Of a stretch of 40,265 bases of DNA, positions 2 through 39,529 are shown in pieces. Numbering within the stretch: position 1 is the first letter of the stretch; each line of letters begins with the position of its first letter. The notes under the pieces were generated by a model. That model did no database searches. It was not told the DNA's origin and saw only the letters and a list, made by a program, of their open reading frames with translations. A program made the position numbers and the translations under genes. Origin of the DNA: a virus; the IMG/VR virus record IMGVR_UViG_3300023202_000211, positions 1 to 40,265 of that record; one strand, written 5' to 3'.

Positions 2-3000
2 GATCGATCAATCATAAGAATAGACGATAATCTTTCGGAAATGGGTGGTACATCCATCAATCAAATCCGAGAGGCTATCTTTGCTATTGAAAGAACTCTT
101 GGTGTGAACCTGCAAGGCTCAATGGGAAGCCTTGCGGAACGCCTGAATGTATCTATCAATTCAGATGGAACTCTAAGAACAGATGCCCTTCAAGCTGTCG
201 GCTTGGCAACCTTGCCAATCCATGACAACCAAGTGGCTGCGACTGCTGGGATCCAGGAATCTAAGTTAGACCTGGATTTCAGCACGTCCGATCTTGCAAC
301 TCAGCTTGCCGCTCTCGATGCTCTGGTAAATTCCACAGCAGATCTTGCAACGCTAACCAACTCTGACTTGCTCATTCACATCGCTGGCGGCACGCTGCTA
401 AATGACAACTCTACCCAGGCACGTCACGTTGCCTCCCAAATCGATATCAACAGCGTTCCTCTTGACACTAGAGATGCTACCTACATCTGGGGTGGTCTCA
501 AGGACAAGAACGGCAACCTCCGCTCCGCAACTCAGGTAGCAGAGGCATTGCTTCAGATTAACGATGACTTTGTTGCCCACCAGAACGCTCTCTCGGAAGC
601 TCATGTTGCTACAGCAATCTCTGTAGATACAACCAATTTCCTTGAAATTCCTAAGGAACTTACAGATGTTCAATCTGTCCTTGATTATTTTGACGATCAG
701 GAGACTCTATCCACAGGTCTTGACCGAGCTACTTTACACACCAATGGCATCATTCGAGATGTGCGCGCAGAAGATCCGCGAGTAGCCGTAGACGGATACA
801 ACACCAACCTCGTACCAGAGACGAAGGTTGCGGCATACTTAGCTGAGCCAAGCCAGACAGCTCCAAATGACAACGCATCTAATGGTGATGATGTTATTCA
901 GTTTTTCCCAGAAGACAACTCTAAGTTCACCTTTGATGCTCAATTCTCCCAAGTAAAGGTTGGTGATACTTTACGTATTAACTACGGAACTGGAATTGAG
1001 GCAGTATTCCCAATTAAGAGCATTCGTTTCAAGCCAGGAACTGAATGGGCTGTTCGAATTAGTACTTATAACCTTAAGAACCTTGATGGTTACAATGGTA
1101 CAGACGGATACGATGGGTACGCTCGTATCGATAGATCTAGATTCGACAATAATACTTGGGGTGTGTTTGCAGCAGCTGGTGCTGTGCCTAACACCAATCC
1201 AGGTGGTGCGTGTGATATTCAACCACAAAGCGTTATCATTGGAAACCCAAGAGGGGCCACAGCGCTAGGTATAGGTTTCGATCCTGGTAAGCTGGATATT
1301 AATCATTACAAATTGTACCTAAGGCTTTACCCATCTGGAGATCCAGAGGTATCTACGGATCTTCCATTCATTGATGTAACTGGAAATGCCGGAACCACTC
1401 CGGGTGCATACAACATTGATAGAGTTGTAGAAGCTACAAATGCAGAGTTCCGCAAAGCAGGTTACAACTACAGATTCATTGCATTCAACTACAAGGGTGA
1501 GTTCGGTCTCATGCTTGCGGATGCTTACAACAATGCATCTTTTTCCATCATCGCTGGCCAGATTAATGGTACATCCATTGAGGAAGCCTCCTTTACAGAA
1601 AACGTAATTGGGGATGCTACAGATGGTTACGATGGTTTGGGATTGGGCGCAGGAAGAGCTGGATTTGCAACACCAGTCTTACCATCAGGATCTGACTTTA
1701 CAGATGCTCAAGCAGCAGCAAGCCTATCAACACTGATTATTCCTCCGGCAACTGGAAGAGATTCTATTATTGATGGTGCTAGGCAGGATATTTTAGGAAC
1801 ACCATCTCTTACTCAGGGTGATGGATATTGGGTTGGTACCGTTACGGATGTAACAACAAATATCATTGAAAACACCAAAACCGTAACATATACTGTTCCT
1901 TTAGATTTGTCCGCTCAAGAGCTTGCTGTTGGAAAAACTATTGTTGTACAACCTGTAGACTCTACAAATTCAGATATTTCCGGATATGGTCGCTTCATCA
2001 TTGGCAATGTTACTTATGATGATAATTGTGGCACAGTAAATCAAACTATCATTTCTGTTATCAATGGTATTCATGGAACTGGAGATCCGTTAGGTACGAC
2101 CCTACCTCTTAATACTGAGGTTAAGTTGTATTTCTCAGAGGACTCTGTTGGGTTTAACAATACCAATGTGGTTGGTGATACCGCAGACTACTTTAGGTAT
2201 CATGAGATTTTTGCAACTCCAACAAGAGAAACATTCGCTGTTGAGCGTGCGCGCATGCCAAAGCAGACTGAGACTGGTATTCTTCTTGGTACGCTAACAG
2301 AGAATTGGAGAATTAGAAAAGTATCTCCAAAGCTTAAAGGGGTTAGGACAGGATCTGATTTCCGTAGCTTTGTAAGGTTTGTTGTTACTGATTACGATCC
2401 TGTAACGGGAAGGTATGATGGTTACATTGGAGAGCCAGACGGAGACTCAATCCTTAACCCAGGACCAATTGTTAGTGGTAAGAAAGATCGTCCAGTACGA
2501 TTCTATGACGGAACTTATGTAAGTCATATAGACATAGAGTTTAGAGAGTTTTCTACCACCCCTGGTATTAACATTATGTCAGATACCTCTCCAAGGTATG
2601 TAGATATTGAGGTTTTTGACACTCTGCAAAGACATGATGAGTTCTTTGCTCTTGCTGGTGTTAGCCACAATGTTTTGGACTTTCAGTCCATTACCGATCT
2701 TCGCGAGTTTGGAACGCTATCTGAAGATAATTTTACAGATTCAGCAATCAAATTCATTCAAGCCGGGGAACGTTATCTTCATGCCAATGGAGTTGTTCGA
2801 GGATTTGAATACGAAGGTACGGCAACGAATTCTGAAGCAGTGCTTGGATTCACCGGAGGTATAGCGCTGGTTAATGGAGCATTTGTTGCAGTAGATTCCT
2901 TTGAAGTGAAACTTCCAGAAGTTAAATCTAGTTCTTCTGATGAGGTGGATTTCCTCATCTGCGTTACCGAGGGAGGGCAGCTTCAGGCTGTTGTTCAAGA

Positions 3001-5068
3001 GACTGGAACGGGTGCGCAATTTTATGCCGTAGACACCGGTTACTATGTTGAGACTTTGTCCTTCAAAGACATTGTGGACAGACATAAAGAACTGACCATT
3101 GTAGCTAAGGTAAACGCCACAATTGCAGATCAGGATGGTGGACTTGTTACTTATTCTTTAAATTCTGTAGCGGATGCAAGACGCTTTGTTTACAATCAAG
3201 ACATTAATGATTGGACAGTTTCTCAGGTTCTAGAGGGTGATGGTTACACCACTACATTCAGAAGCACTGATGCCCTTATCTGCTGGGCAAAAGAATACGA
3301 AATATGTGAAGCAAAAATTGTTTACATAGAATTAGAGGAGCCTGTTGATTTAACTCAAGTTACTCATGGATTCAAATTAAGCGGAGGAACTGTTGTTGTT
3401 AATTCTGATGATGGGTTTATTCTAGATCAGAACATAGAGCTTGATGGTATCGATTTTATTTACAACAACGTACTAACAGGATTTGATCCAGCGGACATAT
3501 CTCATCTTGAAGATACACAGGCGTGTGTAAGCATGCCGGAAGCAACCGGTAATATCAAGATTCACAATTGTAAGTTCAGACAAACTACAACCGGTGAGCG
3601 TGCACCATATATAGCGTACTTCAATGAAGACGGCGACTCACCAATAATAACAAATGTTAGAATTACAGATAATACCTTTGAAGAAAGTTCTAACTCTGCA
3701 AACTGTGCGGTTGGGTTTGCACTGTTTGTAGTAGCAGTTCAAACAGATGATACCGAGCGTTACTTCATTAATATTGATATTTCTAGAAATATCATTAACG
3801 GAAACCAAAGCATATTGATTGTAAGTAACGGCACTGGTGAAAAACCAATTGTAAAGGGATTGACGATAGATGATAACTACATGGAAGATGGCGTTATTGG
3901 TTATCAGTTTGCTTCAGACATTCCACAAACAGGACTTAACAACATCAATGTCGGTGCACGCATTAGCGGCAATTTGTGTCACACAATTATGAGCGCTAGT
4001 ATGGATGGAACATTCTTGCCTGGTTCTTATGGAACGCAAGGTGATGAAATTGTTTCAGGAAATACTTGTGCCAGAATGTACATCTTCCTATCAGGGTTTG
4101 GTGAGAATGGAAGCGTATTTGAAAACAACAAGCTTTATGCTCGGCCATTGATTCCTGAGCTTGATATCACATTCTCTGATGCTGCAATGTTCTTATTTGG
4201 AGGCGGACAAGCTACAATCAAAGGAAACTTTATTCATTACAACCCACGAGATTCCCTAGCTTATGTTACCGGTATGATTGTAAGCTCTAATGCTGTTATT
4301 ACCGAAAACCAATTGCTATCATTAAGCTTTACAGGAACCGGTATTGTTTGTGGTGCCAACTCTATCATCACAAACAATAGAGTTAATCGTGGAACCCAGG
4401 ACTTGACAGGATTCTTTATTCAATCTACGGGTGATGAGACAATCATTTCTGACAACTATCTAAGCCACAGATACACAGATGTAGCAGAAACAGATCCTGA
4501 TACAATTGACTATACATCTGGCGAGGCCGTTGTTACAAGAAATGTTAATCATCTTAGAACTGTTGATGTAGATTTTGGTGCTCATGGTACGGCAGCACCG
4601 GGCCAAAATGATAGTACCCTGTGGTTTGTTAGGACAAATGGAGATTTTGATTCTACAACATGGTTAAGCTCAATACAATCTGGCTCAACATTAATATCTT
4701 CATTTAGAGGGTCTGCATCAGATAGTGCCAGAATGGTATGGAAAGGTTCGTTTAACTCTATCTTACCCGCAGGTGCAAAGGTTGTATCAATAACTTTAGA
4801 TGCAAATGTTGCTGATAGAGCTGATTGGTCATTGGCTGCCGTTGAGTTGGCTATAAGAAATAACCAGTCAGTTACTGATGTTGATGATCATGCCTTGAGT
4901 TTTATTACTGAAGGTTCTGATAATTTAAGCCTATCGTTACCACAAGGTGTCTCTTCACCAATTGATGTTGAGAATACATATTTGTTTATGAGAGCACTTG
5001 GAACAAGAAGCGCTGGAACAAACGGAGACATAACACTTACCAACTGTGAAATTACATATACTTGGTAA
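2..5068 (+). CDS. Giant tail fibre/spike-like virion protein with beta-helix domain (5' partial)
   Basis: The frame is open to the left edge, so the true start lies outside; the first in-window Met is at 41 (1675 residues from there, used for numbering). The first 50 residues contain an amphipathic helix (IREAIFAIERTLG) and a GSMGSLAERL motif of a kind seen near the start of phage fibre and appendage proteins. The middle is beta-rich and carries eight DGY tripeptides. Residues about 1100-1480 show repeated short strands with Asn/Ile ladders (NIKIHNCKF, NVRITDNTF, NIDISRNII, TIKGNFI, IITNNRV), the hallmark of a right-handed parallel beta-helix of the pectate-lyase type used by tailspikes. The last 170 residues look like a beta-sandwich. 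Role inferred: receptor-binding or decoration fibre, possibly sugar-binding or sugar-cleaving; no catalytic residues can be assigned. The gene ends at a strong terminator. The beta-helix is fairly sure, the exact role is not. Confidence 0.7.
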   Translation, partial: DRSIIRIDDNLSEMGGTSINQIREAIFAIERTLGVNLQGSMGSLAERLNVSINSDGTLRTDALQAVGLATLPIHDNQVAATAGIQESKLDLDFSTSDLATQLAALDALVNSTADLATLTNSDLLIHIAGGTLLNDNSTQARHVASQIDINSVPLDTRDATYIWGGLKDKNGNLRSATQVAEALLQINDDFVAHQNALSEAHVATAISVDTTNFLEIPKELTDVQSVLDYFDDQETLSTGLDRATLHTNGIIRDVRAEDPRVAVDGYNTNLVPETKVAAYLAEPSQTAPNDNASNGDDVIQFFPEDNSKFTFDAQFSQVKVGDTLRINYGTGIEAVFPIKSIRFKPGTEWAVRISTYNLKNLDGYNGTDGYDGYARIDRSRFDNNTWGVFAAAGAVPNTNPGGACDIQPQSVIIGNPRGATALGIGFDPGKLDINHYKLYLRLYPSGDPEVSTDLPFIDVTGNAGTTPGAYNIDRVVEATNAEFRKAGYNYRFIAFNYKGEFGLMLADAYNNASFSIIAGQINGTSIEEASFTENVIGDATDGYDGLGLGAGRAGFATPVLPSGSDFTDAQAAASLSTLIIPPATGRDSIIDGARQDILGTPSLTQGDGYWVGTVTDVTTNIIENTKTVTYTVPLDLSAQELAVGKTIVVQPVDSTNSDISGYGRFIIGNVTYDDNCGTVNQTIISVINGIHGTGDPLGTTLPLNTEVKLYFSEDSVGFNNTNVVGDTADYFRYHEIFATPTRETFAVERARMPKQTETGILLGTLTENWRIRKVSPKLKGVRTGSDFRSFVRFVVTDYDPVTGRYDGYIGEPDGDSILNPGPIVSGKKDRPVRFYDGTYVSHIDIEFREFSTTPGINIMSDTSPRYVDIEVFDTLQRHDEFFALAGVSHNVLDFQSITDLREFGTLSEDNFTDSAIKFIQAGERYLHANGVVRGFEYEGTATNSEAVLGFTGGIALVNGAFVAVDSFEVKLPEVKSSSSDEVDFLICVTEGGQLQAVVQETGTGAQFYAVDTGYYVETLSFKDIVDRHKELTIVAKVNATIADQDGGLVTYSLNSVADARRFVYNQDINDWTVSQVLEGDGYTTTFRSTDALICWAKEYEICEAKIVYIELEEPVDLTQVTHGFKLSGGTVVVNSDDGFILDQNIELDGIDFIYNNVLTGFDPADISHLEDTQACVSMPEATGNIKIHNCKFRQTTTGERAPYIAYFNEDGDSPIITNVRITDNTFEESSNSANCAVGFALFVVAVQTDDTERYFINIDISRNIINGNQSILIVSNGTGEKPIVKGLTIDDNYMEDGVIGYQFASDIPQTGLNNINVGARISGNLCHTIMSASMDGTFLPGSYGTQGDEIVSGNTCARMYIFLSGFGENGSVFENNKLYARPLIPELDITFSDAAMFLFGGGQATIKGNFIHYNPRDSLAYVTGMIVSSNAVITENQLLSLSFTGTGIVCGANSIITNNRVNRGTQDLTGFFIQSTGDETIISDNYLSHRYTDVAETDPDTIDYTSGEAVVTRNVNHLRTVDVDFGAHGTAAPGQNDSTLWFVRTNGDFDSTTWLSSIQSGSTLISSFRGSASDSARMVWKGSFNSILPAGAKVVSITLDANVADRADWSLAAVELAIRNNQSVTDVDDHALSFITEGSDNLSLSLPQGVSSPIDVENTYLFMRALGTRSAGTNGDITLTNCEITYTW

Positions 5069-5071
5069 ATA

Positions 5072-5097
5072 AAAAGCCGGCTTATAAGCCGGCTTTT
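5072..5097. terminator. Bidirectional Rho-independent terminator (perfect 26-bp palindrome)
   Basis: A perfect palindrome with two GCCGGC cores separated by TTATAA and flanked by A-runs and T-runs. It lies between the convergent ends of the fibre gene (stop at 5066-5068) and the minus-strand lipoprotein gene (stop at 5107). Each strand reads a GC stem followed by U-rich sequence: TTTTATATG on the + strand and TTTTTATTTA on the minus strand. It should stop transcription from both sides. Confidence 0.9.
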
Positions 5098-5106
5098 ATA
5101 TGTAAG

Positions 5107-5823: not shown

Positions 5824-5882
5824 GTGTTTTCGTTTCGTTTTGGTTTTCTAGGTCATCGGATATTCCGGGAATCGCTGCGGGC

Positions 5883-5904
5883 CTTGGGGTTTTTCGCCCC
5901 GAAG
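5883..5904 (-). promoter_or_regulatory. GGGG/CCCC hairpin in the lipoprotein leader
   Basis: On the + strand GGGG (5886-5889) pairs with CCCC (5897-5900), extendable by CTT (5883-5885) and GAAG (5901-5904) with one bulge. It lies about 60 bases upstream of the lipoprotein ATG, inside the predicted 5' leader. There is no U-tract on either side, so it is not a standard terminator. Its function is unknown. Confidence 0.35.
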
Positions 5905-5912
5905 ACACCCTG

Positions 5913-6205: not shown

Positions 6206-6837
6206 TAGTTGACCACACGGACCTGCCATTAGATGCAGGATACAACAATGACCTGACCACCCGAATCTTCATCGGGGAAGCGTTCAGGCAGGATGCAATT
6301 CTGTACCCAGCGTTGATGGTTCGCATGACCTCAGCGAAGTCAGTGCCCATTTCGATGTCCCGTAACAAGGAGACCATCGAATATGAGAAGCAATTAGTAA
6401 TTGATGGGTATGGAAACACAAAGGAGTTTTTCATACCCCGGTACATCGACCTAGCTGGGGCATGGGAAGGATCTATTTCGATAGATATCTGGGCTAGAGA
6501 CATTCACTCTAGGGATAATTTGATAAGTCTTTTGATGTTGATGTTTACAGACATCAGATTTGAGACAATGAGGAAGGCTGGAGTACTGATCAAATCCGGC
6601 TCTCCTAGCGTAAGCGGGGTCTCGGAAGGGGACGATAGAAGGCAAGATAAGCTCTACAAAGCTACTATTAACATGGAGGTTAGGTCAGAGTGGAGGCGTC
6701 TCATTCCAGTGGGTGGAATCGTGGATCGTATCAATTTCTGCGTAGATTTTACCACAATAGATGGAACGGGAAATACCAACCCAAATCTACAGATAAGCCA
6801 ATCCCTATCCATCTTAGATCAAATTGAGGCTTTGTAA
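6034..6837 (+). CDS. Putative tail completion / neck protein
   Basis: 267 residues, directly before the sheath gene, where myoviruses usually encode tail completion, terminator or sheath-stabilising proteins. The N-terminal part (DLYQIHNVVQNTLMSYPKEL, then WGFPKVVDHTDLPLDAG) and the middle (RIFIGEAFRQDAILYPAL, then LAGAWEGSISIDIWA) suggest a compact alpha/beta virion protein, but I recognise no catalytic motif. One DGY lies at residues 124-126. The start is uncertain: no Shine-Dalgarno precedes ATG 6034, which sits in a hairpin loop; GTG 6088 and ATG 6106 are in-frame alternatives, also without a clear ribosome site. I keep 6034 because the residues before Met25 look like coding sequence. Role is inferred from position. 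Confidence 0.6.
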   Translation: MTPGTLNFHRTDLYQIHNVVQNTLMSYPKELVIDILRKEFSKDSFFHYVADPWGFPKVVDHTDLPLDAGYNNDLTTRIFIGEAFRQDAILYPALMVRMTSAKSVPISMSRNKETIEYEKQLVIDGYGNTKEFFIPRYIDLAGAWEGSISIDIWARDIHSRDNLISLLMLMFTDIRFETMRKAGVLIKSGSPSVSGVSEGDDRRQDKLYKATINMEVRSEWRRLIPVGGIVDRINFCVDFTTIDGTGNTNPNLQISQSLSILDQIEAL

Positions 6838-6925: not shown

Positions 6926-9400
6926 ATGGCAGCTAATATTCCAGGCGCAACAAGCATAGTTCCTAGCGTTGTATCTGAAACCAGAACAATCCAGCGGGGA
7001 GTAAGTGTACCAACAGGTATTCGCACCGCTGTACTCATGGGTGAGGGTCTCAAGGAGGAAGTCCTTGTAGGTTCCGCAAATGGTGCTGGTAACGATGGTT
7101 TCAATCCAACCTACACTTCAACAAATGGGTCTGATGGCCGTCACTTTCTATTAGGAAAGGGTCAGGATGTCGTTGCCCCAGTAATCATTAATCGATCAAG
7201 ACTTTTCAAGAACGGCATTGAGTTGGCGCTTCTTGAAGACACAATTGATAGCAACCCTTTCGACTCTCGATTCGATGCGAGACTAGATCCACAGACAGGA
7301 CAGATTGAGCTTCAAGCCGCATATCTTGTAGACCAAGGTGGACAGAACTATCTTCCATCAGGAAGTAATGTCGGTGACGGAACTATTGATAACCTTTCTT
7401 TGCTCGATCCTAACGCACCACCAGAGACCTGGACTATTCGTTGCTCAAGCGTGCGTAGAGATGGATACGGAGATCCAATTGACGGTTATGCAAGGTTCAT
7501 TGCTCGTGGCTCCGAGAGTGGAATCCTTCTCGATGGTTACGGAAACCAAATTACATGGCAGTCTAACGGAACCATCGTTGATAACGGCGTTCTAAGATTC
7601 TCAATCTCAGAGGGTACAACTCCATTCCAGGAGGGCGACAGCTTTATCGTCCAAGTTGAGGGTGGAGCACTTGTAGCGGGAGACTCTCTCAGCGCTCGAT
7701 ACATCTCACTGCTAGACTTAAATGACCCAGAGTTTTTCTCTGACCTCAATGAATTGGTAGCTAAGCATGGACAGCCAACAGTAGATAATAGACTCTCTCT
7801 TGGTGCACAGCTTTCATTCGCTAACGGAACACCAGGTGTGTTTGCACTGCAGACTAAACCTTCTATTCCAAGGCGTGTTTCTTACCAGCTTGAGGATTCA
7901 GCTAACGGTCAGACAGATCTCGATGATCTTACTTTCGAGCTTCCTCTGAACGTTATTCCAGACGTTGATGCGAACATCAACTTCTTCGTTACCTCTCCAA
8001 CCACAGGTTCGGAGACACAGATTATTCCTAACAAGGTTGACTTCTTCGACCCAACCATCACCTCTAACCCATCTGGATTCGTATTCGGACCAGATGACTT
8101 CTCTTATACAGTTATCCTTGACGAGTCTGTACAGAAGAAGGCAGAGAATGGTGTGCTTACACTCACCTCCGCAACCACAGCAACACTTGCAAGTGCAACG
8201 GTAGAGTTCGGTGTTGAAGACCTTGCGGCAACCAGAAGTCTCAGAATTGAGAACTCACTTCTTGGTAACGATGGAACATTCACAATTACAGGTGTTGTAA
8301 ACGGTGAGCTTCAGCTCTCCAGCGCAGCACCATTCGGAGCCGACGAATCAGGAATTGAATTCTTTGTTCTTGACAGCATCGCAAGCTCTGCACGAATCCT
8401 GTTTACATCAGACTTGGCACTTCAGCTTGGTGAAGAGCTAAGAGCTACAGTTGTCGATGTAAAGGATGCAGACTTCTTCGACGCTGGTTGGCTTGAGGCT
8501 TACGAGGCAGCAGAGAGAATCGAAGTTGACATGGTTGTTCCACTTCCATCTCAGACAATCTCTGCAATCTTCCAGAACGGTAAGGTTCATGTTGAGACAA
8601 TGTCTAACATCCGAAACAAGAAGGAGCGTATCCTCTTTGTCGGAGCAATCCGAGGCTTGGATCCAGACAATGTTATCGGAACTGAGCCAGCTGCAGTTGA
8701 AGACATCGGCGTACTTGAAGGTATTCAGGGTGATGATGTTTCCGAGATTCTTTCTGGTAACGTCGAAGACCTTGCAAACTATGGTGTACAGGATGCTTTC
8801 GGAGACTCTTACCGCGTAGTTTACTTCTACCCTGACGAGATTGTTGTTCAGGCTGGAGCGGATAACGTACAGGTTGATGGATTCTTCATGGGCGCGGCGG
8901 CTGCGGGACACTTCTCTGGTTCCACACAGATTCCTGAACCACTTACTAACAAGAGGCTTTCTGGATTTACCATCCTTCGTGACAAGCTGTATCCACCGCT
9001 TGTTGAAGAAAACATCGCTCAGTCAGGCATGACTCTCCTTACACCAGTTGCTGGTGGTGGACGAGTTGTCTGGGGTAAGACCACAACGATCTCCCTGGAG
9101 CCAACTGAGGAGGAAATTTCCATCGTGTTCATTCGCGATAGGATTTCAAAGAGCATGCGCCGAGCATTCTTGCCTTACATCGGTCGTGCAGAGACAGCAA
9201 CCTTCAAGGCTACCTTGTTCCAGGTTGCACAGGCCCTAATGCAGACATTCATTCAGCAACGTCTGATTACAACATTCGGCGGTCTGACTGTTAATAGGGA
9301 TTCAGTAGAGCCACGTCAGTGGAACATCACAGTTGCTGTACAGCCAACCTTCCCAGTGAACTGGATCTACATCCTTATCAACGTTGGAAGGCTTGACTAA
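6926..9400 (+). CDS. Tail sheath protein
   Basis: 824 residues, larger than many sheaths. The C-terminal 200 residues carry the conserved sheath domain: YPPLVEENIAQSGMTLL, then VVWGKTT, then FIRDRISKSMRRAFLPYIGR, an ATFKATLFQVAQALMQ helix, and a final beta-strand ending YILINVGRLD. Sheath subunits form the contractile outer cylinder; the N- and C-terminal strands of the family mesh neighbouring subunits together. The N-terminal and middle parts are beta-rich, probably surface insertions, and hold three DGY tripeptides in one short segment (residues 179-181, 186-188, 203-205). The start is well supported by AGAGGA six bases upstream. The tube gene follows after ten bases, the normal sheath-tube order. 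Confidence 0.95.
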   Translation: MAANIPGATSIVPSVVSETRTIQRGVSVPTGIRTAVLMGEGLKEEVLVGSANGAGNDGFNPTYTSTNGSDGRHFLLGKGQDVVAPVIINRSRLFKNGIELALLEDTIDSNPFDSRFDARLDPQTGQIELQAAYLVDQGGQNYLPSGSNVGDGTIDNLSLLDPNAPPETWTIRCSSVRRDGYGDPIDGYARFIARGSESGILLDGYGNQITWQSNGTIVDNGVLRFSISEGTTPFQEGDSFIVQVEGGALVAGDSLSARYISLLDLNDPEFFSDLNELVAKHGQPTVDNRLSLGAQLSFANGTPGVFALQTKPSIPRRVSYQLEDSANGQTDLDDLTFELPLNVIPDVDANINFFVTSPTTGSETQIIPNKVDFFDPTITSNPSGFVFGPDDFSYTVILDESVQKKAENGVLTLTSATTATLASATVEFGVEDLAATRSLRIENSLLGNDGTFTITGVVNGELQLSSAAPFGADESGIEFFVLDSIASSARILFTSDLALQLGEELRATVVDVKDADFFDAGWLEAYEAAERIEVDMVVPLPSQTISAIFQNGKVHVETMSNIRNKKERILFVGAIRGLDPDNVIGTEPAAVEDIGVLEGIQGDDVSEILSGNVEDLANYGVQDAFGDSYRVVYFYPDEIVVQAGADNVQVDGFFMGAAAAGHFSGSTQIPEPLTNKRLSGFTILRDKLYPPLVEENIAQSGMTLLTPVAGGGRVVWGKTTTISLEPTEEEISIVFIRDRISKSMRRAFLPYIGRAETATFKATLFQVAQALMQTFIQQRLITTFGGLTVNRDSVEPRQWNITVAVQPTFPVNWIYILINVGRLD

Positions 9401-9410
9401 TAGGTGATTC

Positions 9411-10135: not shown

Positions 10136-10150
10136 GTTCTATGGAGGTTT

Positions 10151-10897
10151 ATGACTAAGATTGAGAGTTCTATTGGCCAGTCGAGCGTTCGTGGTAATGC
10201 ACCACGGCGCTTTACTGTTTCTGATGAGAGTGCAGATACTCAAAGCGCTCAAAAAGAGCGTCAGGGGTTTAACACGCCCGAGGGGCGTATGAGAGCTGCT
10301 CAGGCCGCAGCAGCACAGGCAGCCCAGGCAGCTCCCCAACAAGAGCTGTCACAAGCTGAGGTGATGGCTCGTAGAGCCCAGGCTCAGTTCAAAGACGAGC
10401 AAGTTCAGTATCGATCTACTCAAGACGCTCGGCGTCGAGTGGATATTCTTACTGGATTGGGTCGTAAAACCAAAGATGTGCCTATTGAATTAGAAGGACA
10501 GCACGTAGTTATCACTCTGAGGACTCTCAAGACTTTTGAACAGACTATGTTGGCCCAGGTGATTGAGCAAGCAGAGCGCGTGCAGATATCTGAAACAATC
10601 ACTGTGTTTTCTCCTACCTCTGCGCACAGGGTTCGTCTTGAAGCACTGACCCATTCTGTCTTTTTGATTGATGGCCAGGACATAGATCTTGTACTAGGCA
10701 CTTACAATTCACCTTATGAGTCTCAACTTGAGGCTCGTCAGATGCTTATCTCCGAAATGGACGGGGCTCTGACTGAACACCTCTATTCAAAGTACCAAGA
10801 GCTATCAAAGGAAACCCAGGATGGTTATGCTCCGAAGACTGCAGCGCAAGCTGAGGAGGTGGTTGATACCATTCGAAAAAGCGGTCAGGACTCCTGA
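10151..10897 (+). CDS. Tail assembly chaperone, short form (upstream frame)
   Basis: 248 residues between the tube and tape measure genes, the fixed position of tail assembly chaperones (lambda G/GT, P2 E/E'). GGAGG (10143-10147) precedes the ATG by three bases. The N-terminus is disordered and Ala/Gln-rich (residues 55-75). The folded part follows: residues 105-130 (DVPIELEGQHVVITLRTLKTFEQ) and a helical C-terminus that includes one DGY at 224-226. Chaperones of this type coat the tape measure until the tube polymerises and are absent from the virion. The frame ends at UGA 10895-10897 inside the sequence GAC UCC UGA U, and a second frame, open without a stop from 10773, continues to 11228. 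This is the standard layout for a frameshifted long form. Assignment is by position and architecture. Confidence 0.75.
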   Translation: MTKIESSIGQSSVRGNAPRRFTVSDESADTQSAQKERQGFNTPEGRMRAAQAAAAQAAQAAPQQELSQAEVMARRAQAQFKDEQVQYRSTQDARRRVDILTGLGRKTKDVPIELEGQHVVITLRTLKTFEQTMLAQVIEQAERVQISETITVFSPTSAHRVRLEALTHSVFLIDGQDIDLVLGTYNSPYESQLEARQMLISEMDGALTEHLYSKYQELSKETQDGYAPKTAAQAEEVVDTIRKSGQDS

Positions 10898-32200: not shown

Positions 32201-35200
32201 AGCTGATTGCTCAAGTTACGCAAATTGAACCGCGCATTGTCGAGGCCGCTTTCTGGTCACTTGGAGTAAGCTACTTAGAAAAGGTCACCTCTGAAGTGCT
32301 TGGTGCACCTTATTTAACAGTTGGGTGTTTTGATCAGGGTCTCGCAGTGCGCAATGCCGGAGACGGGGTAACATTACCAATCTCTAACAACCTAAGACTA
32401 GAAGAGGGTACTCTGGAGATGTGCCTTATTCCAGATTGGGATGGTATCGACAACGATGCAGATCTTACATTTAGAATACAGAAAGACGGCTATCTCCTAC
32501 CAAGTACAGATGTCTACATTGGAGCGAGTTCTTTCAACCCAACATACAACAAAGAGGGTGAATTCACCATCAGCCGTTTGGACGCCAAGTCCCCAGAAGG
32601 TCTACCAGCCCTTATTTTCACTCAGACGGGCATCTTTATTTACTACGATCCGGACAACAAGCAGTGGAAGATGTTGGCAAAGGATCGTCCGGGGCCAAAT
32701 GGTTCAGTCTATTCTGGTAACGTCACCTCCTCTGGTGAGTTCTATGATGTAAAGTTCATCCCATCTTTGGGGGAGCTTTCAGACGTACTTCGTTCCGGTA
32801 TAGGAACCCTTGAATTTGAATTTCATCTAGATGGTTACGACGCCGCATCTCCAGACGGATATGACGGCTATGATGGCTACGTCATTCCAGGCTTCTCATT
32901 CGATGGAATTCAGTTCCTTTCTGATAACAAGCACTACTTTTTTGATTTTGGCACGAACGAATACCAGAACCGTTTTTCACTTTACAAAGATGGTAAGGGA
33001 TACCTTGTCTTTGAGGTGTGGGACCGTGGTGGCTTGGGCGCAATCAAGCCAGATAGAAGATCGGTTTATCAGGTGAGCGCTGACATCCAAGATTGGATGG
33101 CGGGGCAAGAATATGACATAGCTATTTCTTGGGTACTAAACTCTGCAGACAGAAGAGATGAGATGCATCTTTATGTTAACGGGTTTGAAACACCTAACCT
33201 AGCGCGTTACGGTAACGTTCCATCAGTGGCTAGTACAAACCGATTCAGAACAGTTGTTCCAGAGCAGGTTGCTGGTGTCGTTGCCAAGAACTCTATTGTT
33301 GGAAATGACCTCGTTACTGCTCAAGGATCGGATACTGTTAGCTCTGCAAGTACAAACTTCTCTGGTGCTGGTATTTCGATAGGGGATACTATTGAAATTC
33401 TTGAACAGGGTTTCATGACGTATGTGATTTTGGGCATTTCAGGTAATGAGCTGACCCTTAATATGCCAATGCCAGCAACCCTAACAAATGCAAGATTCTC
33501 TGTGAATCCGGTAGAGTTCATTGTAGGTACAGAAATTGATGTTTACAAGAATATTGGCGTATTTGTAACAGATGGAACAACTGAAACAGAAATTCCTGGA
33601 ACAAGAGCTAGTATTCCGTCTTACTCAATTGAGCGCAATACCCTGAACCAGCGAATTCTTAAGGTTTTAGGCAACATACAAACCGGAGATCAGATTCTCA
33701 TTAAGACCTTTGGTTTGAACCACCGACGCTGCAGAGATGATGTTTATCTTTGGAGCCAAAAAAGCCTGTTGAAGACAGCCTTACCACCGCCAATTAACTT
33801 GGATGATGTAGTTGTCAAAACCATAGTTCTTCCGTTAACACCAATTGGTCCGGACAATGCAATTCTTGTAGGTTCTAATTTTGAAGCTACAATTACAGAT
33901 GGATATACACAACCATCTAACCCTCTTGAAGGTCGTAGATTAGAGATTCGTGTTACCGGATCTAACACTGACTTTAGCACTCCCGTTGAAGTAACACTTA
34001 ATGGAGATTCTTCTGGAGGTGCGTCCGAGACTATTACATTCTCTGCACCAGGAAAAAAGACCACTGTAAATAAGTGGCGTGTTGTTTCAAGTGTTGATGT
34101 ACAGGTTACACCTATCGTTGACACGATGGATGCTACTGCTATTGAAATCAAGGACGCATACTCTATTACAGAGCCCGCTGGTAATATGATGTACCCAGTC
34201 ATCAGGTTCTCTTATAGAACTCAAGCAGGGCTTGATCTACAGGGTGATGGTGGTCCAATTCTAGCAGACCCACAGGGATACTTCCCAGCCTCTGAGATTG
34301 GAAACCTTCTAGAGATCTCAGATCCTCCAGCGGTAGCTGGAATTTACAAGATTGAAGATCGTCTAGACAACAACACCATTCGTGTTGACAGGAATGTGGG
34401 CGCAGCATTCAGCTCTGGTGACTATGAATCCTTCAATGTAAGTATTGGGCGTTCTGGTTTCCAGAACGGATTCTTCTTTTTTGAAATGGCAGGGTTTACA
34501 AACATGCCATATGAGCTTCCAGCGGGCTATTATGAGTTTGATTATGCATCTTACCTTGAGGTGCCGTTCGATCCTCTTTGCCAGGTAGGAATAATTGGTA
34601 ACGACATTACTCTGCAAAAGCCGGCAAAGGCTGTAATTGATGAATTCCGTATCTTGAACCGTCAACTTACAGACACACGCATTGGAGAAACTATTTCCCT
34701 CAATGAGCAGTCTATCACAACAGGCGCTACTAAGTTCGGACCTTTCGAAAAGGACCAAGACACATTAACATTGTTCCATTTCGAAGAACTTCCACCTGTC
34801 AATGATGCTGACTTCTACAAGTTCGCTAACAAGGAATACGTCCAGTCTGGCGAGTCTGTGAACTCAAGATTTGGACACTCCATTGTGGTTCGTGATCGTG
34901 GTCTTGTGTTTGAAAACAGAGGGCGTTTGGATACCTCCAATGAGGGTCTTATCGAAATGTGGATCTCACCACGGTTTGATACTTACAATGATCCGGTAAT
35001 TAGGACTTACTTTGATGCTGCAGCGAATACGGTTGAAGATGTAGTAAGCCTGACCAAGGGAAGGGTGCGGGTTTCTCGTAGAGCAAGCCAGGTTACATAT
35101 GTTCGTCTTGAGGGTGATACTAACTTACAGGGTACTGACTTCTTCAATGGCGGAACCATTGATGATGATGGAAGAACTTTGATTCTTAACACGCCACTTC

Positions 35201-35958
35201 CATTTCAGAACACACCAGTTCGTGTAGCTTATGTACCTACAGGGGTTCAGGGTGACAGAATTAACATCACGAAAGATAGAGAAGGGTTCATCGCATTTAC
35301 GGTTACTGCCAGTGGCAAAACATACCAGACACGACAGCCTATTTTTTGGCCTCGCGATACCTGGCATAGAATCAGGGCGTCATTCAAATTCAACCGTCCT
35401 GATAACAAGGATGAGATTCGTCTCTTCGTTGATGGCGAGGAGAGAGGATCACTTCTTTTCGGTGCCGGAGATCTTGTGTTCGGGCAAGGCCTTATTTGGG
35501 GTCAATCAGCCGTAGGTGGTGTGACAGATCAGATCTACACAGCTGATATAAACTTCTTAGACACAGTGACTCAGTTTTCACTTGGTCAGGATTTCGCCGG
35601 GAACTTCGGAGCAGAGGCACGATTCGATAACGTAAAACTATCAAATAGGTCCATTGAACCATTACTTATTGCAGGTCAGCCAAGAGACGTTTACTTCAAC
35701 ACAGTCAAGGATTGTATCTTCCCATCTATTGATGATGCCTTTACTACCTTCTTGTTTGATTTTGATCAATTCGTAGAAAAAACCGAAGATTTCGCTGTTA
35801 TCCGCGATCCTGCCTTTGGCATTTTCAACTTTGACATCGATATCATAGACTCTTTCAGCATAGTGACAGGGGATCCAAGGGTCCAAACTGTACTGGAAGC
35901 CTTAATAGATGCCCTAAAGCCAGCTGTTTCGAAGGTTGGCATCCAATACGTAAAGTGA
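29281..35958 (+). CDS. Giant baseplate/tail protein with two concanavalin (LamG)-like regions
   Basis: 2225 residues, TAATG-coupled to the J-like gene, the position of P2 gpI or T4 gp7-type wedge proteins. Around residues 935-1010 a helical segment (ELDREIYRDILQGALQTFTQGPTIPAMKQL) resembles the gpI-type wedge core. Two related lectin-like regions follow. The first begins near 1038 (EGTLEMCLIPDWDG), contains DEMHLYVNGFE near 1300 and closes near 1800 with VIDEFRILNRQL. The second begins near 1880 (EGLIEMWISPRFDT), contains DEIRLFVDGEE near 2045 and ends near 2130 with FDNVKLSNRS. Such jelly-roll domains bind or display carbohydrate, so surface contact is likely. Seven DGY tripeptides occur, four within residues 1184-1200. 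The closing region resembles other wedge C-termini only weakly. It is probably the largest wedge protein here. Confidence 0.7.
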   Translation: MANLRILDINAADSRTIKVRFSSELAKDIGASNVRIVSEVVNVPDVQVENVSSIQDILIIETLPQTPYVRYKIFFESTNAVRFRSLDETSFLVEDGRSNTAKIIGAENDWNPTRSEFVGYLGGQQGVYDLSRETKVRSIINNLADLINKGRWDVRQAKTANYLELEIKDERKTRRFGPWDRLNQEGAFEVNRVGLTPTDENLPGVIEFDSFPNEPITLQREIVTSETLVLGVGSGTYENLTLTVNRKPVTKLTAVQIRYENGDIFNYDIRSFGYQIQDPQYDPSFGRRLITLGEDQFRLSAELAEDPSFNLPGGGDQIVVSYEYKSLGRVIDSDSVTVTEVIEQVREAAPALTTMFSLEAPIVTSGDSIPTSGGVTFLDPYSVTPFKNTHPAFLREIPFREGGLPGRAGEYSIDYSTGRVFVWGAETNDGTGVFPPAMTYNYRKTYIPNLDYTYVPEFRDLVASPLRELIGKNAKINYLFEQTLVPDVDYIANVHVESQNERIENRLASLDSLYTQNSPITNVFRIYNETTGELYNLRRFTNNRVYFDARTPPRISDATRERATFHVEGNEPLILEREFVNVLGTRVFMFRVQNQNIISTTEDVIGSSYNSSAEFSQTDIFTQELYYDAQELTEETNTNRLMVGQYQINYREGIVYVGVTPGQLLNVGTISYRIPTIDPKNPHVVSVSDVYNSINANFGPSKVLDYDSFGEDQIVPTPTLLDFSDERYRMNDTTNPLIVFDDQIVVDDDIKNVRGIYDAFDLNNSDAPTNFAEASTFEANVITLDNVGITKTVTTIVTAGLVITVPFISPGIVIGTAQSVIRSSDETQLLDGYESITGNTITLSGTSGAVVSDVVEVIYTVVLNSASTPIVDYNRGDFFVDYSYLLDEILVSYEWGDNVIDFRQSNTLEENDIYYVTYSVGALRNSLLENFGSLVRVEELQNFDEELDREIYRDILQGALQTFTQGPTIPAMKQLIAQVTQIEPRIVEAAFWSLGVSYLEKVTSEVLGAPYLTVGCFDQGLAVRNAGDGVTLPISNNLRLEEGTLEMCLIPDWDGIDNDADLTFRIQKDGYLLPSTDVYIGASSFNPTYNKEGEFTISRLDAKSPEGLPALIFTQTGIFIYYDPDNKQWKMLAKDRPGPNGSVYSGNVTSSGEFYDVKFIPSLGELSDVLRSGIGTLEFEFHLDGYDAASPDGYDGYDGYVIPGFSFDGIQFLSDNKHYFFDFGTNEYQNRFSLYKDGKGYLVFEVWDRGGLGAIKPDRRSVYQVSADIQDWMAGQEYDIAISWVLNSADRRDEMHLYVNGFETPNLARYGNVPSVASTNRFRTVVPEQVAGVVAKNSIVGNDLVTAQGSDTVSSASTNFSGAGISIGDTIEILEQGFMTYVILGISGNELTLNMPMPATLTNARFSVNPVEFIVGTEIDVYKNIGVFVTDGTTETEIPGTRASIPSYSIERNTLNQRILKVLGNIQTGDQILIKTFGLNHRRCRDDVYLWSQKSLLKTALPPPINLDDVVVKTIVLPLTPIGPDNAILVGSNFEATITDGYTQPSNPLEGRRLEIRVTGSNTDFSTPVEVTLNGDSSGGASETITFSAPGKKTTVNKWRVVSSVDVQVTPIVDTMDATAIEIKDAYSITEPAGNMMYPVIRFSYRTQAGLDLQGDGGPILADPQGYFPASEIGNLLEISDPPAVAGIYKIEDRLDNNTIRVDRNVGAAFSSGDYESFNVSIGRSGFQNGFFFFEMAGFTNMPYELPAGYYEFDYASYLEVPFDPLCQVGIIGNDITLQKPAKAVIDEFRILNRQLTDTRIGETISLNEQSITTGATKFGPFEKDQDTLTLFHFEELPPVNDADFYKFANKEYVQSGESVNSRFGHSIVVRDRGLVFENRGRLDTSNEGLIEMWISPRFDTYNDPVIRTYFDAAANTVEDVVSLTKGRVRVSRRASQVTYVRLEGDTNLQGTDFFNGGTIDDDGRTLILNTPLPFQNTPVRVAYVPTGVQGDRINITKDREGFIAFTVTASGKTYQTRQPIFWPRDTWHRIRASFKFNRPDNKDEIRLFVDGEERGSLLFGAGDLVFGQGLIWGQSAVGGVTDQIYTADINFLDTVTQFSLGQDFAGNFGAEARFDNVKLSNRSIEPLLIAGQPRDVYFNTVKDCIFPSIDDAFTTFLFDFDQFVEKTEDFAVIRDPAFGIFNFDIDIIDSFSIVTGDPRVQTVLEALIDALKPAVSKVGIQYVK

Positions 35959-35962
35959 GCTT

Positions 35963-36542
35963 ATGACTATCCGTAATGATATTGGAACAATTTATGTTAT
36001 AACAAACATAGTGAATGGTAAACAATATGTTGGTCAAACGTGGTTTAATATAAACATTAGACTTAAACAACACTTAAGACAAAAAAAGATGTGTAAAATT
36101 AGCTCGTGCAATTCAAAAGTATGGATCCAAAAATTTTTCAATAAAAGAAGTTGATAAAGCGCACACTCAAGAAAAATTAGATAATTTAGAAAAACTATAT
36201 ATCAAAAAACTTAACACTGTGACTTGTGGATATAATTGTACTGATGGTGGTCTTGGTGGAAGATTACAACCTGAAGTTATTGAAAAAATTAGAGCTTCAA
36301 GACTTGGCAAAAAAGCTTCAGATGAAACAAGAAAAAAGATTAGCATTAATAATAAAGCTGGGCAACTCCATGTTAGAAAAAAGATGTCACAATCTAGTTT
36401 AACAAAAACAGATGACACAACAAAATCTAAAATTATGAAATTGTTAAAGCAAGATATGACTCAGCAAATGGTTGCAGATTTTTTGGGAATCAGTCAATCT
36501 TATGTAAGCAGAATAGTTAATGGAAATAGGAGAGCGCTGTGA
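35963..36542 (+). pseudogene. GIY-YIG homing endonuclease, disrupted by a one-base frame change
   Basis: Read across a frame change at the A7 run 36081-36087, this encodes about 193 residues. The first frame gives the GIY-YIG core (GTIYVITN, KQYVGQT, and IRLKQH with the catalytic-type Arg). The second frame continues LARAIQKYGSKNFSIKEV, NLEKLYIKKLN (catalytic-type Glu) and CGYNCTDGGLGG. A NUMOD3-like DNA-binding segment follows (SRLGKKASDETRKKISINN), then a helix-turn-helix (QQMVADFLGISQSYVSRIV). The first frame alone stops at 36152-36154. The gene is much more AT-rich than its neighbours, a sign of transfer. One A too many would explain the break: real mutation, sequencing error, or slippage on the homopolymer. 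It sits free-standing between two tail genes, and its stop overlaps the next start as GTGA. Confidence 0.85.
36528..36532 (+). promoter_or_regulatory. Ribosome binding site deciding the GTG start at 36539
   Basis: AGGAG lies six bases before GTG 36539, inside the last codons of the homing endonuclease. It supports GTG as the start of the 996-residue gene and shows that the inserted element supplies the translation signal for its downstream neighbour. Confidence 0.7.
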
Positions 36543-39529
36543 CAATTAGAAAACCCGTTTCAATAATTCACAACCGATACTATGATGGTCAGAGAGTTGA
36601 CCAGATAGATATGGATGTTGAGCAGGATCGTAACGTTGGAAAAGACGCTTCGATTGTGCAGAACCACTTTGGTTCTGGTATTTTACCTGCCTCAGCTTCT
36701 CAGAAGGTACTTTTTGATACGGATAACCTATTCCCTGATCAAGTAGCTCTCATTGCATCTAACGACTTCGACGGTACAGGTCTGTGCTTAGCAGATCAGC
36801 CATCAGATAACGTTCTAGGAAATCAACTTGAAGTACAGCTGTTAGATTCCGATCTAAACCTCAACGGCCTCTCAGAGGTAGGTGGTCGTTTAAGTACAAA
36901 AGTGCTAATTATTGGGCTAGATTTCCAAGGCAACCTTCAGTACGACAGATTCTATTTCTACCGAAAAGAGAGACAGATTACCAAGAAGCATTACGCTCAG
37001 ATTTTGACCGTATTCTTCAATGATTTTTATGGTAACAATAACTGTTCACGACAGTTGGGTGGACGAGTCATTATTCGAGAGACATCATCTTTCCAGCTAT
37101 CTCGTGATACTAGGATGATTTCACAGGATGTTGAGCCCAATCTCTTTTTCCGTGATTTCAAAGTCTCTAACACCACTGTTGGTAGCAACCCATCTGTTAC
37201 ACTAGCTCAAACCATTCAGGCTGGTATTGGTCCTGACTACAGCGTAGATGCTCTAGATATTAATACCACCGTGAAGCGTGATTTTGAGCTTGTTTCTGGA
37301 GATGTAACAACCTCTATTGCTCAGAAGTTTTTAGCAAAGACCAACAACATTCAGAAGATATCTATTCTTCTTGGTGTGCGGCGAGCCCAGGGTGTAAGTT
37401 TAGAAACACAATTTAACTGGTCTGGTGAATTGATTGTCAATGTGTTTGAGCTACAGAGTTCAGTAGATTGTCCAACTGATATTATCCCAGAATTGGCAAT
37501 TGAATTTGATCCGAACCCAGTACCTATCACTCAGTTTAGTCTTGATCAGGCAACGCTAAGAGAGCAGGGGTATATCTTGTCAGATGTACTTCAGCCCATT
37601 GATTTGGTGTTCAACAATACACTTCTTGGCAGCACAACAAATCCAGTAATTGTACCTGGAAGATACTATGCAATATCCATTGGACGTGCGGGAGATGCAT
37701 CTACCGGAACTCTCTTTACTGGTATTGGTAACTCTAAGAGTACAGATGATAGATTCTCTGTGTTCTCTAGTCAGTGGACCGACATTCCTGAAGAAGACAT
37801 GTGGTATCAGGTATGGTCTGATACTGCAAAGATTGCAGATGGCCAGGCTTACGATGCTGGAAATGGAATGGAGATTCCAAAAACTGACATTAATCAGCTG
37901 GGCGCTACGATAGATTATGTTCTTGACCAGCAGCCATTTGCCGATACTGGTCAGAATACTCTTAACACAGCGATTGTAGAGGCTATCGCTGTACAGTCTC
38001 AACAAGAGCAGGATGAGCGTACTGGAAACCCAGTATTTGCGCGTCAGCAATTTGATCCATCATTTAGTTTTGCTACAAATACAACCCTAGCCACCCTACA
38101 AGACTCTTCAGAGCCTCTAATTGTTGGTTGTGCTCGTGATATCAATGCAAAGTCCAACAGTCCTATCTCTGACTTTCAGCCTTTCCCAGGATTGGTCAAG
38201 GGCAACGTCTTTACCATTGTCGATCCTGAACCTGATTTCATCTCTCAGCAGTTGATTGGTTCTAGCTTGATTCCTAACGATGACTGTGCTGGTATCGAAT
38301 ACAAGATTGTAAGGGTTATCCTTTGCACTGATGGGTATGGAGATGTAAATGGTGATGGTATCATCGATGATGATGATGTTATTCGAGCAACCCAGCTCAT
38401 TGGTGAGTCTCTAGAGCTTACATCTACCCAGAGCAAGATTAACTCTGGCCAGGTTGATACCTTAGAGATACTTCGTGCCGATGTAGATGGTGATGGATAT
38501 GTTACCACTGCAGACGTATCTCTGATTTCTGACTTTGTTGCTAGAAACATCAACTCATTCCCTGTTGGAGCTTCCTTCAGACATCTTGAGCTGACAGTAC
38601 AGAATGCTACTGGACGTTTTGACGGGTACTATGATTGCGATGGGTACGTAAGGCTCGATGGCTATTGCGGTGTCAACATCGTCAACCCCGCAGATCTGAG
38701 CGATGCAGAGCTTGAGTACTATGGCTGGAACGGTTTGCCAGACATGGTTGCTAACGATCCTGCATTTGCAACCGTCCCATATGATACTTTAGCGTATCGA
38801 GTAGATCCATTACCATTCTGGCAAGACTACTTACTACAATTTAGCTCAGAAGCAAGGCTTGTTCCAGCTACATTTACGTCAACAGATGACCCTCAAGTAC
38901 TATTTGATAACGATGGCAACTGTATTGGTAATGAAGTTTCCACATGTGGTGCTGTTTTTGACCTTGGAGACTCCTGCAACCCAGGAAGAAACGACTTCTT
39001 CGTCCCTGATAACCTTATCATTGGCAAAGGACAGATTCTTAACACCCAAGGTGACCTGTTCAAGCAAGATTTTGAGGTCAAAACCATCACTCTGGAGTTA
39101 CCAGAGAAGCAGTTTGCTCAGGCCGTGCTCAATGTGTTTGAGAAATTGGTTGCAGACTCCGGAGATGGTTTCACTTCTGCGGGTCTACCAGCTGCTAAGT
39201 TCTCAGATTGCTCTACGGTGCAGTCTGATGCACTTCTGAAGAACCAGATCCGCTTTGCTGTGGCTATTCAAAGCATTTATCCTAACCTGGACGGGTACGA
39301 CGAGGATGGATATGGCGTAATTGTGGACAATATCATTGGTGTAAACATGTCTCAGGCAACGGGTATCATGACTTTGAGTATGAAAGACATTGCTTACGAC
39401 TCAATTTACGCAGATTTGAGGACCAAGATCGAAATTACGGTCTATCTCAAGAAGGCGGGTTGGAATAACACCAATACTATCATCCCATTTGACCAAGTTG
39501 AGGGTTTGTTCACGACGGGTGTGACGTAA
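36539..39529 (+). CDS. Large tail/baseplate protein with dockerin-like calcium-binding domain
   Basis: 996 residues from GTG. The N-terminus (VSIIHNRYYDGQRVDQIDMDVEQDRN) looks like that of a structural protein that assembles onto the wedge; the body is beta-rich. Residues about 598-672 contain two EF-hand-like loops: D602-V-N604-G-D606-G-I-I-D610 with D613, and D648-V-D650-G-D652-G-Y-V-T656 with D659. Each is followed by a helix (VIRATQLIG; VSLISDFVA), the layout of a type I dockerin, which binds two calcium ions and in cellulosomes docks to cohesins. No cohesin was seen in this window. Seven DGY tripeptides occur, clustered at 598-715 and 918-925. Scattered Cys in the second half (FDGYYDCDGYV, DNDGNCIGNEVSTCG) may bind metal or form disulfides. 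Tail location is inferred from neighbours. Confidence 0.65.
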   Translation: MTIRKPVSIIHNRYYDGQRVDQIDMDVEQDRNVGKDASIVQNHFGSGILPASASQKVLFDTDNLFPDQVALIASNDFDGTGLCLADQPSDNVLGNQLEVQLLDSDLNLNGLSEVGGRLSTKVLIIGLDFQGNLQYDRFYFYRKERQITKKHYAQILTVFFNDFYGNNNCSRQLGGRVIIRETSSFQLSRDTRMISQDVEPNLFFRDFKVSNTTVGSNPSVTLAQTIQAGIGPDYSVDALDINTTVKRDFELVSGDVTTSIAQKFLAKTNNIQKISILLGVRRAQGVSLETQFNWSGELIVNVFELQSSVDCPTDIIPELAIEFDPNPVPITQFSLDQATLREQGYILSDVLQPIDLVFNNTLLGSTTNPVIVPGRYYAISIGRAGDASTGTLFTGIGNSKSTDDRFSVFSSQWTDIPEEDMWYQVWSDTAKIADGQAYDAGNGMEIPKTDINQLGATIDYVLDQQPFADTGQNTLNTAIVEAIAVQSQQEQDERTGNPVFARQQFDPSFSFATNTTLATLQDSSEPLIVGCARDINAKSNSPISDFQPFPGLVKGNVFTIVDPEPDFISQQLIGSSLIPNDDCAGIEYKIVRVILCTDGYGDVNGDGIIDDDDVIRATQLIGESLELTSTQSKINSGQVDTLEILRADVDGDGYVTTADVSLISDFVARNINSFPVGASFRHLELTVQNATGRFDGYYDCDGYVRLDGYCGVNIVNPADLSDAELEYYGWNGLPDMVANDPAFATVPYDTLAYRVDPLPFWQDYLLQFSSEARLVPATFTSTDDPQVLFDNDGNCIGNEVSTCGAVFDLGDSCNPGRNDFFVPDNLIIGKGQILNTQGDLFKQDFEVKTITLELPEKQFAQAVLNVFEKLVADSGDGFTSAGLPAAKFSDCSTVQSDALLKNQIRFAVAIQSIYPNLDGYDEDGYGVIVDNIIGVNMSQATGIMTLSMKDIAYDSIYADLRTKIEITVYLKKAGWNNTNTIIPFDQVEGLFTTGVT

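Follow-up and report, generated by a model that had tools for sequence, protein, structure and literature searches.

The tripeptide Asp-Gly-Tyr (DGY) is strongly overrepresented in the exterior virion proteins of a large set of related, uncultured phages, and it is very probable that some trans-acting factor reads it. With less assurance, but still as the favoured reading, I propose from sequence comparisons that DGY is a sequon at which the phage's own enzymes would O-glycosylate virion tyrosines; the sugar chemistry is the part that I infer.

The window (the whole stretch of DNA analysed) is an IMG/VR virus record 40,265 bases long, in which lies the cluster of tail and baseplate genes of a phage with a contractile tail. 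It contains exactly 30 in-frame DGY tripeptides, spanning positions 791 to 39313 and distributed over seven proteins: eight in the fibre, one in a 267-aa protein, three in the sheath, one in the chaperone, three in a hydrophobic protein, seven in a 2225-aa protein and seven in a dockerin protein. The initial annotation had given the same number, distribution and coordinates, and its statement that the tape measure, hub, spike, J-like, gp25-like and tube proteins of the window have none was borne out by the recount. When residues were shuffled within each protein (2000 trials), the mean number of DGY was 2.4 and the maximum 9; this null reproduces the 2-3 copies that had been expected from composition and gives no counts similar to the one observed. 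No other tripeptide of the window's proteins comes near DGY in enrichment (the runner-up, AQA, occurs 10 times as against 2.8 expected), and once the DGY copies are removed, the dipeptides DG and GY are at chance level. The copies, their principal carrier genes and the adjoining glycosyltransferase gene are as follows.

791..799, + strand: DGY 1, beta-helix fibre g1
1085..1093, + strand: DGY 2, beta-helix fibre g1
1103..1111, + strand: DGY 3, beta-helix fibre g1, in a cluster
1112..1120, + strand: DGY 4, beta-helix fibre g1, in tandem with DGY 3
1622..1630, + strand: DGY 5, beta-helix fibre g1
1820..1828, + strand: DGY 6, beta-helix fibre g1
2417..2425, + strand: DGY 7, beta-helix fibre g1
3239..3247, + strand: DGY 8, beta-helix fibre g1
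6403..6411, + strand: DGY 9, 267-aa protein g3
6926..9400, + strand: g4, contractile tail sheath (PHROG tail sheath, E=2e-11), with three DGY
7460..7468, + strand: DGY 10, sheath g4 residue 179, loop; DSA, DSS or DSL in the outgroup
7481..7489, + strand: DGY 11, sheath g4 residue 186, loop; PGL in the outgroup
7532..7540, + strand: DGY 12, sheath g4 residue 203, loop; DSS in the outgroup
10820..10828, + strand: DGY 13, tail assembly chaperone g6, overlapping the ATG of g7 (10821)
22956..22964, + strand: DGY 14, hydrophobic protein g12
23052..23060, + strand: DGY 15, hydrophobic protein g12
23613..23621, + strand: DGY 16, hydrophobic protein g12
29281..35958, + strand: g16, 2225-aa baseplate-region protein, main DGY carrier of the clade
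31771..31779, + strand: DGY 17, g16
32485..32493, + strand: DGY 18, g16
32830..32838, + strand: DGY 19, g16, in a cluster
32854..32862, + strand: DGY 20, g16, in tandem
32863..32871, + strand: DGY 21, g16, in tandem
32872..32880, + strand: DGY 22, g16, in tandem
33898..33906, + strand: DGY 23, g16
36539..39529, + strand: g18, dockerin-containing DGY carrier (Dockerin_1, E=1.7e-5)
38330..38338, + strand: DGY 24, dockerin protein g18, directly ahead of the first dockerin loop
38492..38500, + strand: DGY 25, g18, in a dockerin/EF-hand loop (DVDGDGYV)
38621..38629, + strand: DGY 26, g18, in a cluster
38639..38647, + strand: DGY 27, g18, in a cluster
38657..38665, + strand: DGY 28, g18, in a cluster
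39290..39298, + strand: DGY 29, g18
39305..39313, + strand: DGY 30, g18
39572..40265, + strand: g19, GT4 glycosyltransferase gene, cut by the window end; the proposed DGY-reading enzyme, and proposed opening gene of the glycosylation locus

The codons at these sites are mixed (22 GAT and 8 GAC; 11 GGT, 9 GGA, 6 GGG and 4 GGC; 15 TAC and 15 TAT), as the earlier tallies had it, and the choice is indistinguishable from gene-wide codon use (Fisher p 0.12-1.0), from which it follows that DGY is not a recent DNA repeat. The sequence GAYGGNTAY occurs 31 times on the plus strand of the window, 30 of these being the in-frame DGY, and not once on the minus strand. A DNA-level repeat or mobile insertion is ruled out by the gene-like codon use and the lack of minus-strand copies, and the claim that selection acts on the peptide is supported by the codons, the bias in strand and frame and the spread over divergent relatives. 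Two of the copies are special cases. The one in the chaperone, at 10820, shares bases with the start codon (ATG at 10821) of the gene that follows (GATGG, GATGGTTATG) and is retained at that overlap (window 10820-10830) in three relatives; it may be an effect of the overlapping coding sequences and probably does not belong to the DGY system. The dockerin-protein copy at 38492 sits within an ordinary dockerin/EF-hand loop.

Two further reading frames of the window deserve brief mention. On the minus strand, 5107-5823 encodes a predicted lipoprotein rich in Cys, Gly, Ser and Thr (MNKYILTIIASMSFTIACGGDE...), with no homologue in six relatives; by eye it is like secreted lipoproteins of the myxobacterial type, and the gene may be cargo derived from a host. 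A small ORF at 36219-36542, between g16 and g18, has a weak NUMOD3 match and an HTH; it looks like the remnant of a homing endonuclease and is missing from the relatives compared.

The enrichment recurs in the relatives: across about 100 related contigs from uncultured phages, the longest of them 473 kb, DGY is the tripeptide most enriched in exterior virion proteins. Relatives found by their tandem pattern are biased towards DGY; the sets obtained by sheath search and by J-like profile are unbiased. The sheath search yielded 31 related loci, with DGY enriched about 7- to 17-fold where sheath identity is at least 55% and 0- to 3.5-fold, on few copies, at distant loci (about 39-45% identity). 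A profile scan for the J-like baseplate protein, picked regardless of DGY, gave 80 loci; the phages that they come from reach 473 kb. Among the 67 examined, which range in G+C from 27 to 48%, DGY is in most cases the top tripeptide of the downstream g16 and g18 homologues, at 8- to 29-fold in the nearer groups and mostly 4- to 10-fold in the farthest; two partial far sequences have zero DGY in g16/g18. Ordinary phages also show a mild excess (10 as against 2.8 expected in T4, or 3.6-fold, with one per gene; 4 as against 2.7 in phage G, or 1.5-fold), and therefore only excesses well above that level are counted here. As to the host, a 383-kb contig (L382) in a Chitinophagales MAG carries a relative of the capsid protein (76% identity over 154 residues); this sole co-binned contig is a weak hint of a Chitinophagales host, too little for naming one.

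A wider view was obtained from long stretches (130-392 kb) of six related records. The virion blocks hold 70 DGY as against 4.5 expected in G001 and 49 as against 4.0 in G002, and outside these blocks the ratio falls to about 1.2-2.2 in G001, G002, G005 and G009. G003 has 42 DGY outside its virion blocks (13 expected), half of them in two fibre-like proteins with 10 and 11 copies, where about 0.5 would be expected in each. Both have lectin-like laminin-G domains and one has a weak match to T7 tail fibre; neither has a homologue in the other genomes compared.

Within the particle, the distribution of DGY is exterior-biased, matching the outside of the virion, where the positions of g12, g16 and g18 are presumed. 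Family counts, taken from deduplicated homologue sets, give enrichments of 16.0-fold for the fibre, 16.1-fold for the sheath, 18.8-fold for g12, 22.5-fold for a 531-aa protein, 11.4-fold for g16 (406 DGY as against 35.7 expected in 59 homologues), 26.0-fold for g18 (260 as against 10.0 in 46 homologues) and 29.2-fold for the head decoration protein (88 as against 3.0). The interior proteins do not rise above chance: hub (6.6 expected), probable major capsid protein (2.2) and gp25 (0.7) have none, and tube (1 as against 0.8) and spike (6 as against 6.6) are near chance. There is also none in g9 (1.0 expected), and the J-like wedge protein is intermediate (3.8-fold). The decoration protein, identified as such by a match to PHROG_49 (E=4.5e-4) and by gene order, retains its main DGY column in 63 of 64 relatives, in a loop otherwise variable in length and sequence; the outgroup G010 protein does not have this DGY. 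The predicted structure (mean pLDDT 74.9) also places DGY in a loop, and a fold search with that model found nothing below E=0.001, the best match being the phage capsid entry 9kmg (E=0.76). The probable major capsid protein is the 346-aa protein adjoining the decoration protein, so assigned by its extreme conservation and gene order; a search with the gp23 family found no match. The DGY-rich 531-aa protein (G005:10462) had also been considered for that role and was dropped on its alignment.

What is recognised appears to be the tripeptide and little else. In 241,627 residues of exterior virion proteins from the main group, DGY occurs 955 times as against 53.3 expected (17.9-fold), a short strict motif common to many unrelated targets, with flanking residues that are nearly free. 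Words one residue away are at most mildly enriched: in the same proteins, EGY occurs 7 times (31.7 expected), NGY 45 (53.9, or 0.83-fold), DAY 54 (42.7), DGF 99 (67.3) and DGW 5 (9.0), and DGT and DGF are enriched about 1.5- to 2-fold. The usual replacement of Tyr is Phe. Among variable Tyr columns, 13 of the 40 at DGY contain Phe, compared with 255 of the 313 ordinary ones in the same proteins (Fisher p=5e-10, a value that is indicative only: each column is a site of its own, but the sequences share ancestry), and its mean share of Tyr replacements is 0.13 at DGY as against 0.43 at ordinary columns. When DGY sites lose a single residue, Tyr most commonly gives way to Thr, Val or Ser and DG is kept (DGT, DGV, DGS); replacement of Asp by Glu or Asn shows no clear by-column difference. 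The rarity of Phe implies that the tyrosine is not there for packing and that its hydroxyl matters. In the group with low DGY no alternative sequon was evident, in a weak test where the pooled list was dominated by conserved homologous words.

The history of the sites can be traced best in the sheath, whose fold matches solved sheaths by Foldseek (best E=2.8e-12) and the PHROG sheath family (E=2e-11). Where the outgroup has RDSAGNPIPGL...IKDSSGSPI, the clade has RDGYGNPIDGY...LDGYGNQI, and the three sheath DGY are, on this alignment, substitutions into existing turns. In the AF2 model (mean pLDDT 71.8 overall, about 80-91 in the DGY stretch) all three lie in loops between strands of a beta-rich stretch, at about residues 150-245. 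The suggestion that DGY arose by old insertion is thus wrong for these traceable sites, though some sites elsewhere are insertions. When 59 g16 sequences are aligned, DGY occupies 109 distinct columns, of which 52 have it in no more than one sequence each, a number somewhat inflated by alignment error in this long protein; sites there come and go while the DGY load per protein persists. The homologues do not, therefore, merely conserve DGY: many sites turn over and the total stays high. In phages of the G001 type, the 531-aa protein (L121:10001-12082, L122:10001-12028) has an insert resembling the sheath's DGY-bearing domain, an apparent domain transfer between structural genes on an alignment judged by eye.

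The candidate enzyme lies directly downstream. The partial g19 (39572) is 74% identical, over its part, to a full-length G005 protein that matches Pfam Glyco_transf_4 (E=2.7e-9), and of 28 diverse relatives searched with an HMM of GT4, 27 have a homologue. Its distance mostly fits a gene lying immediately 3' of g18, with exceptions such as G015, where it is about 10 kb further. A phage-encoded glycosyltransferase thus stands beside structural genes, after the baseplate genes, in both the window and its relatives. Most full-length copies have the catalytic EX7E motif of GT4 enzymes (ECWHLPSLE, ECFWLPGLE, EGFGLPMLE, EGWGMPFLE), and the window copy ends ahead of it; a sequence search of the PDB with GT4 gave only spurious ubiquitin-fusion matches. 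In G005, the GT4 gene after g18 is followed by genes for four GT2, GT10, GT11, GT47-like and Glyco_trans_1_2 proteins, and the locus also encodes two proteins of the GDP-mannose-dehydratase family, a nucleotidyltransferase and a methyltransferase-like protein. Inteins with LAGLIDADG endonucleases were observed in two genes of the glycosylation locus, a nucleotidyltransferase (L110:16051-17805) and a GT4 (L212:11086-13788), and downstream of the locus lies a TubZ/FtsZ-like tubulin gene (L111:3433-4815) with homologues in G001-G003. Huge-phage glycosyltransferases could act on DNA instead. The presence of GT4 does not track DGY density one to one: it is present in the group at 35-38% identity, though DGY in the g16 homologues is only about 4- to 10-fold enriched there, and the G010 outgroup also has a glycosylation locus. 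Either the target of the enzyme is looser or different in the low-DGY group, then, or GT4 is not the reader.

One lineage spells the word differently. The g16 and g18 proteins of L248, L249, L250 and L207 have 20 DAY as against 1.9 expected (10-fold), together with 36 DGY as against 2.6, and DAY sometimes swaps with DGY (e.g. LLDAYSFDGQ and LLDGYQFDGQ); the enrichment was spotted post hoc in the survey of J-like loci. Acceptance of Ala together at many sites in two proteins is what would be expected from one changed trans-acting reader and is hard to explain by local structure. The two full-length GT4 copies of this lineage, 745 and 758 aa long, carry a second GT4 domain as a fusion (a third related copy, truncated by its contig and interrupted by an intein, in L212, begins the same extension), compared with open frames of 360-407 aa in other relatives, and other genes separate the lineage's GT4 from g18. 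The shift in spelling and the fusion are a single co-occurrence, since they are seen in one lineage only.

The mechanism I propose is that a phage-encoded trans-acting enzyme, most likely the GT4 (g19) encoded 3' of the baseplate genes, recognises DGY where virion proteins display it in exposed loops, and modifies the hydroxyl of its tyrosine. The neighbouring GT2, GT10, GT11 and GT47-like transferases and NDP-sugar enzymes would then extend the glycan, probably with fucose, and the outcome would be a glycan coat on the sheath, fibres, baseplate periphery and head decoration that protects or disguises the virion. I infer glycosylation as the modification, GT4 as its initiator and the protective or disguising role of the coat. 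The broader proposal, that the entire superclade of huge phages practises its own tyrosine O-glycosylation of the virion outside, at dozens of DGY sites and with sequon specificity (DGY, D[G/A]Y) co-evolving with GT4, I hold to have an even chance.

The tyrosine might instead receive some other modification (sulfation, phosphorylation or an oxidative cross-link) from another enzyme, while the nearby glycosyltransferases serve elsewhere. The apparent need for the hydroxyl and the drift to D[G/A]Y would suit any tyrosine-modifying enzyme, and the locus includes some conserved genes that fall in no Pfam family (L110:1224-2195 for one), but no match to a sulfotransferase, kinase or radical-SAM protein was found among the locus genes scanned, and the neighbouring gene that is conserved most widely encodes a glycosyltransferase; I think this explanation unlikely. 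Also improbable, in my estimation, is that DGY is a short linear ligand to which either an accessory protein of the virion or a surface molecule of the host docks non-covalently. Loop placement, the 71 immediate tandems, the exterior bias and the tolerance in the flanks all fit such a motif, and Phe would fail here too if the hydroxyl makes contact; binding motifs, however, usually tolerate conservative changes, whereas EGY, NGY and DGW do not exceed chance and the enrichment of DGF is just 1.5-fold. Short of a systematic search, no gene for a DGY-binding partner came to light either.

A structural role has still less to recommend it. If DGY were just a tight turn that beta-rich virion proteins favour, under selection for how they fold or pack, one could account for DG being a common turn, for DGT and DGF at about 1.5- to 2-fold, for the 3.6-fold DGY of T4 and for the commonest one-residue losses keeping DG. 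NG is also a good turn, yet NGY is at 0.83-fold and DGY at 18-fold; moreover, Tyr is not swapped for Phe as it is elsewhere, the spike is at chance (6 as against 6.6) and there is a lineage that uses DAY, Ala being a poor turn residue. Such a turn is accordingly a quite improbable explanation. Metal contact, one of the meanings suggested in the initial annotation, would take the form of calcium-binding loops of the DxDGDGY kind (EF-hand, dockerin, thrombospondin-3). There is a dockerin domain in g18 (E=1.7e-5), and one of the window's 30 copies lies in its loop, but the DxDxDGY context, with Asp at loop positions 1, 3 and 5, accounts for just 33 of 1056 copies (about 3%), 26 of them in g18. 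Membership in these families is rejected for the bulk of DGY, and the chance that calcium loops explain it is slight in the extreme. A modification site, another of the three meanings suggested there, is the one that the evidence favours.

Tyrosine glycosylation of the virion can be set beside several known systems. The general protein O-glycosylation of Bacteroidetes (B. fragilis, T. forsythia) uses the motif D-(S/T)-(A/I/L/V/M/T...) and is alike in its three-residue motif beginning with Asp, its many unrelated protein targets and its locus of glycosylation genes; its glycan contains fucose, which is only proposed here (PMC8698959). That system is cellular and its acceptor is Ser or Thr (PMC8698959), whereas here Tyr is proposed, with virion proteins as targets and genes carried by the phage; with D-G-Y in place of D-(S/T)-X, DGY is not a member of it. 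SpaA of Paenibacillus alvei and other S-layer proteins bear an O-glycan on tyrosine, as proposed here, and are likewise self-assembling surface proteins, with 2-4 sites per protein, variable surroundings of the sites and a proposed O-oligosaccharyltransferase (PMC2943079); here, by contrast, there are a strict tripeptide, many sites and transferases of GT4/GT2 type. Structural proteins of mycobacteriophages carry shielding glycans, described for the C-termini of capsid and tail-tube subunits in the work of Freeman et al. (2023), as cited in PMC12619734; unlike the sites so described, those found here are a strict tripeptide in dispersed exterior loops and avoid the probable capsid and tube proteins. 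Moraphages are aquatic phages with four core groups of glycosyltransferases and are similar in being large, uncultured, tailed and in possession of conserved GT genes that lack a known target, and their account proposes no motif or target (PMC12619734).

The DGY system, judged on its sequences, seems a blend of the Bacteroidetes, S-layer and mycobacteriophage designs and is a proven member of none. A search of the available literature turned up nothing on a DGY motif in phages or on phage virions glycosylated at tyrosine. To my knowledge, neither a strict tripeptide sequon for protein tyrosine glycosylation nor a virus-borne one has been described, and the glycosyltransferase genes that are common in huge phages are, so far as I am aware, mostly without a known target.

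If the proposal is true, glycosylated virion proteins and their sites would be predictable from genome data alone by means of a sequon readable in sequence, the purpose of the glycosyltransferase clusters in this group of phages would be explained, and there may be a small set of enzymes able to put a glycan on tyrosine within a three-residue tag. The DGY sites are also a case of convergent evolution, in which one tripeptide has arisen at hundreds of unlinked sites and the recognised word has shifted in one lineage.
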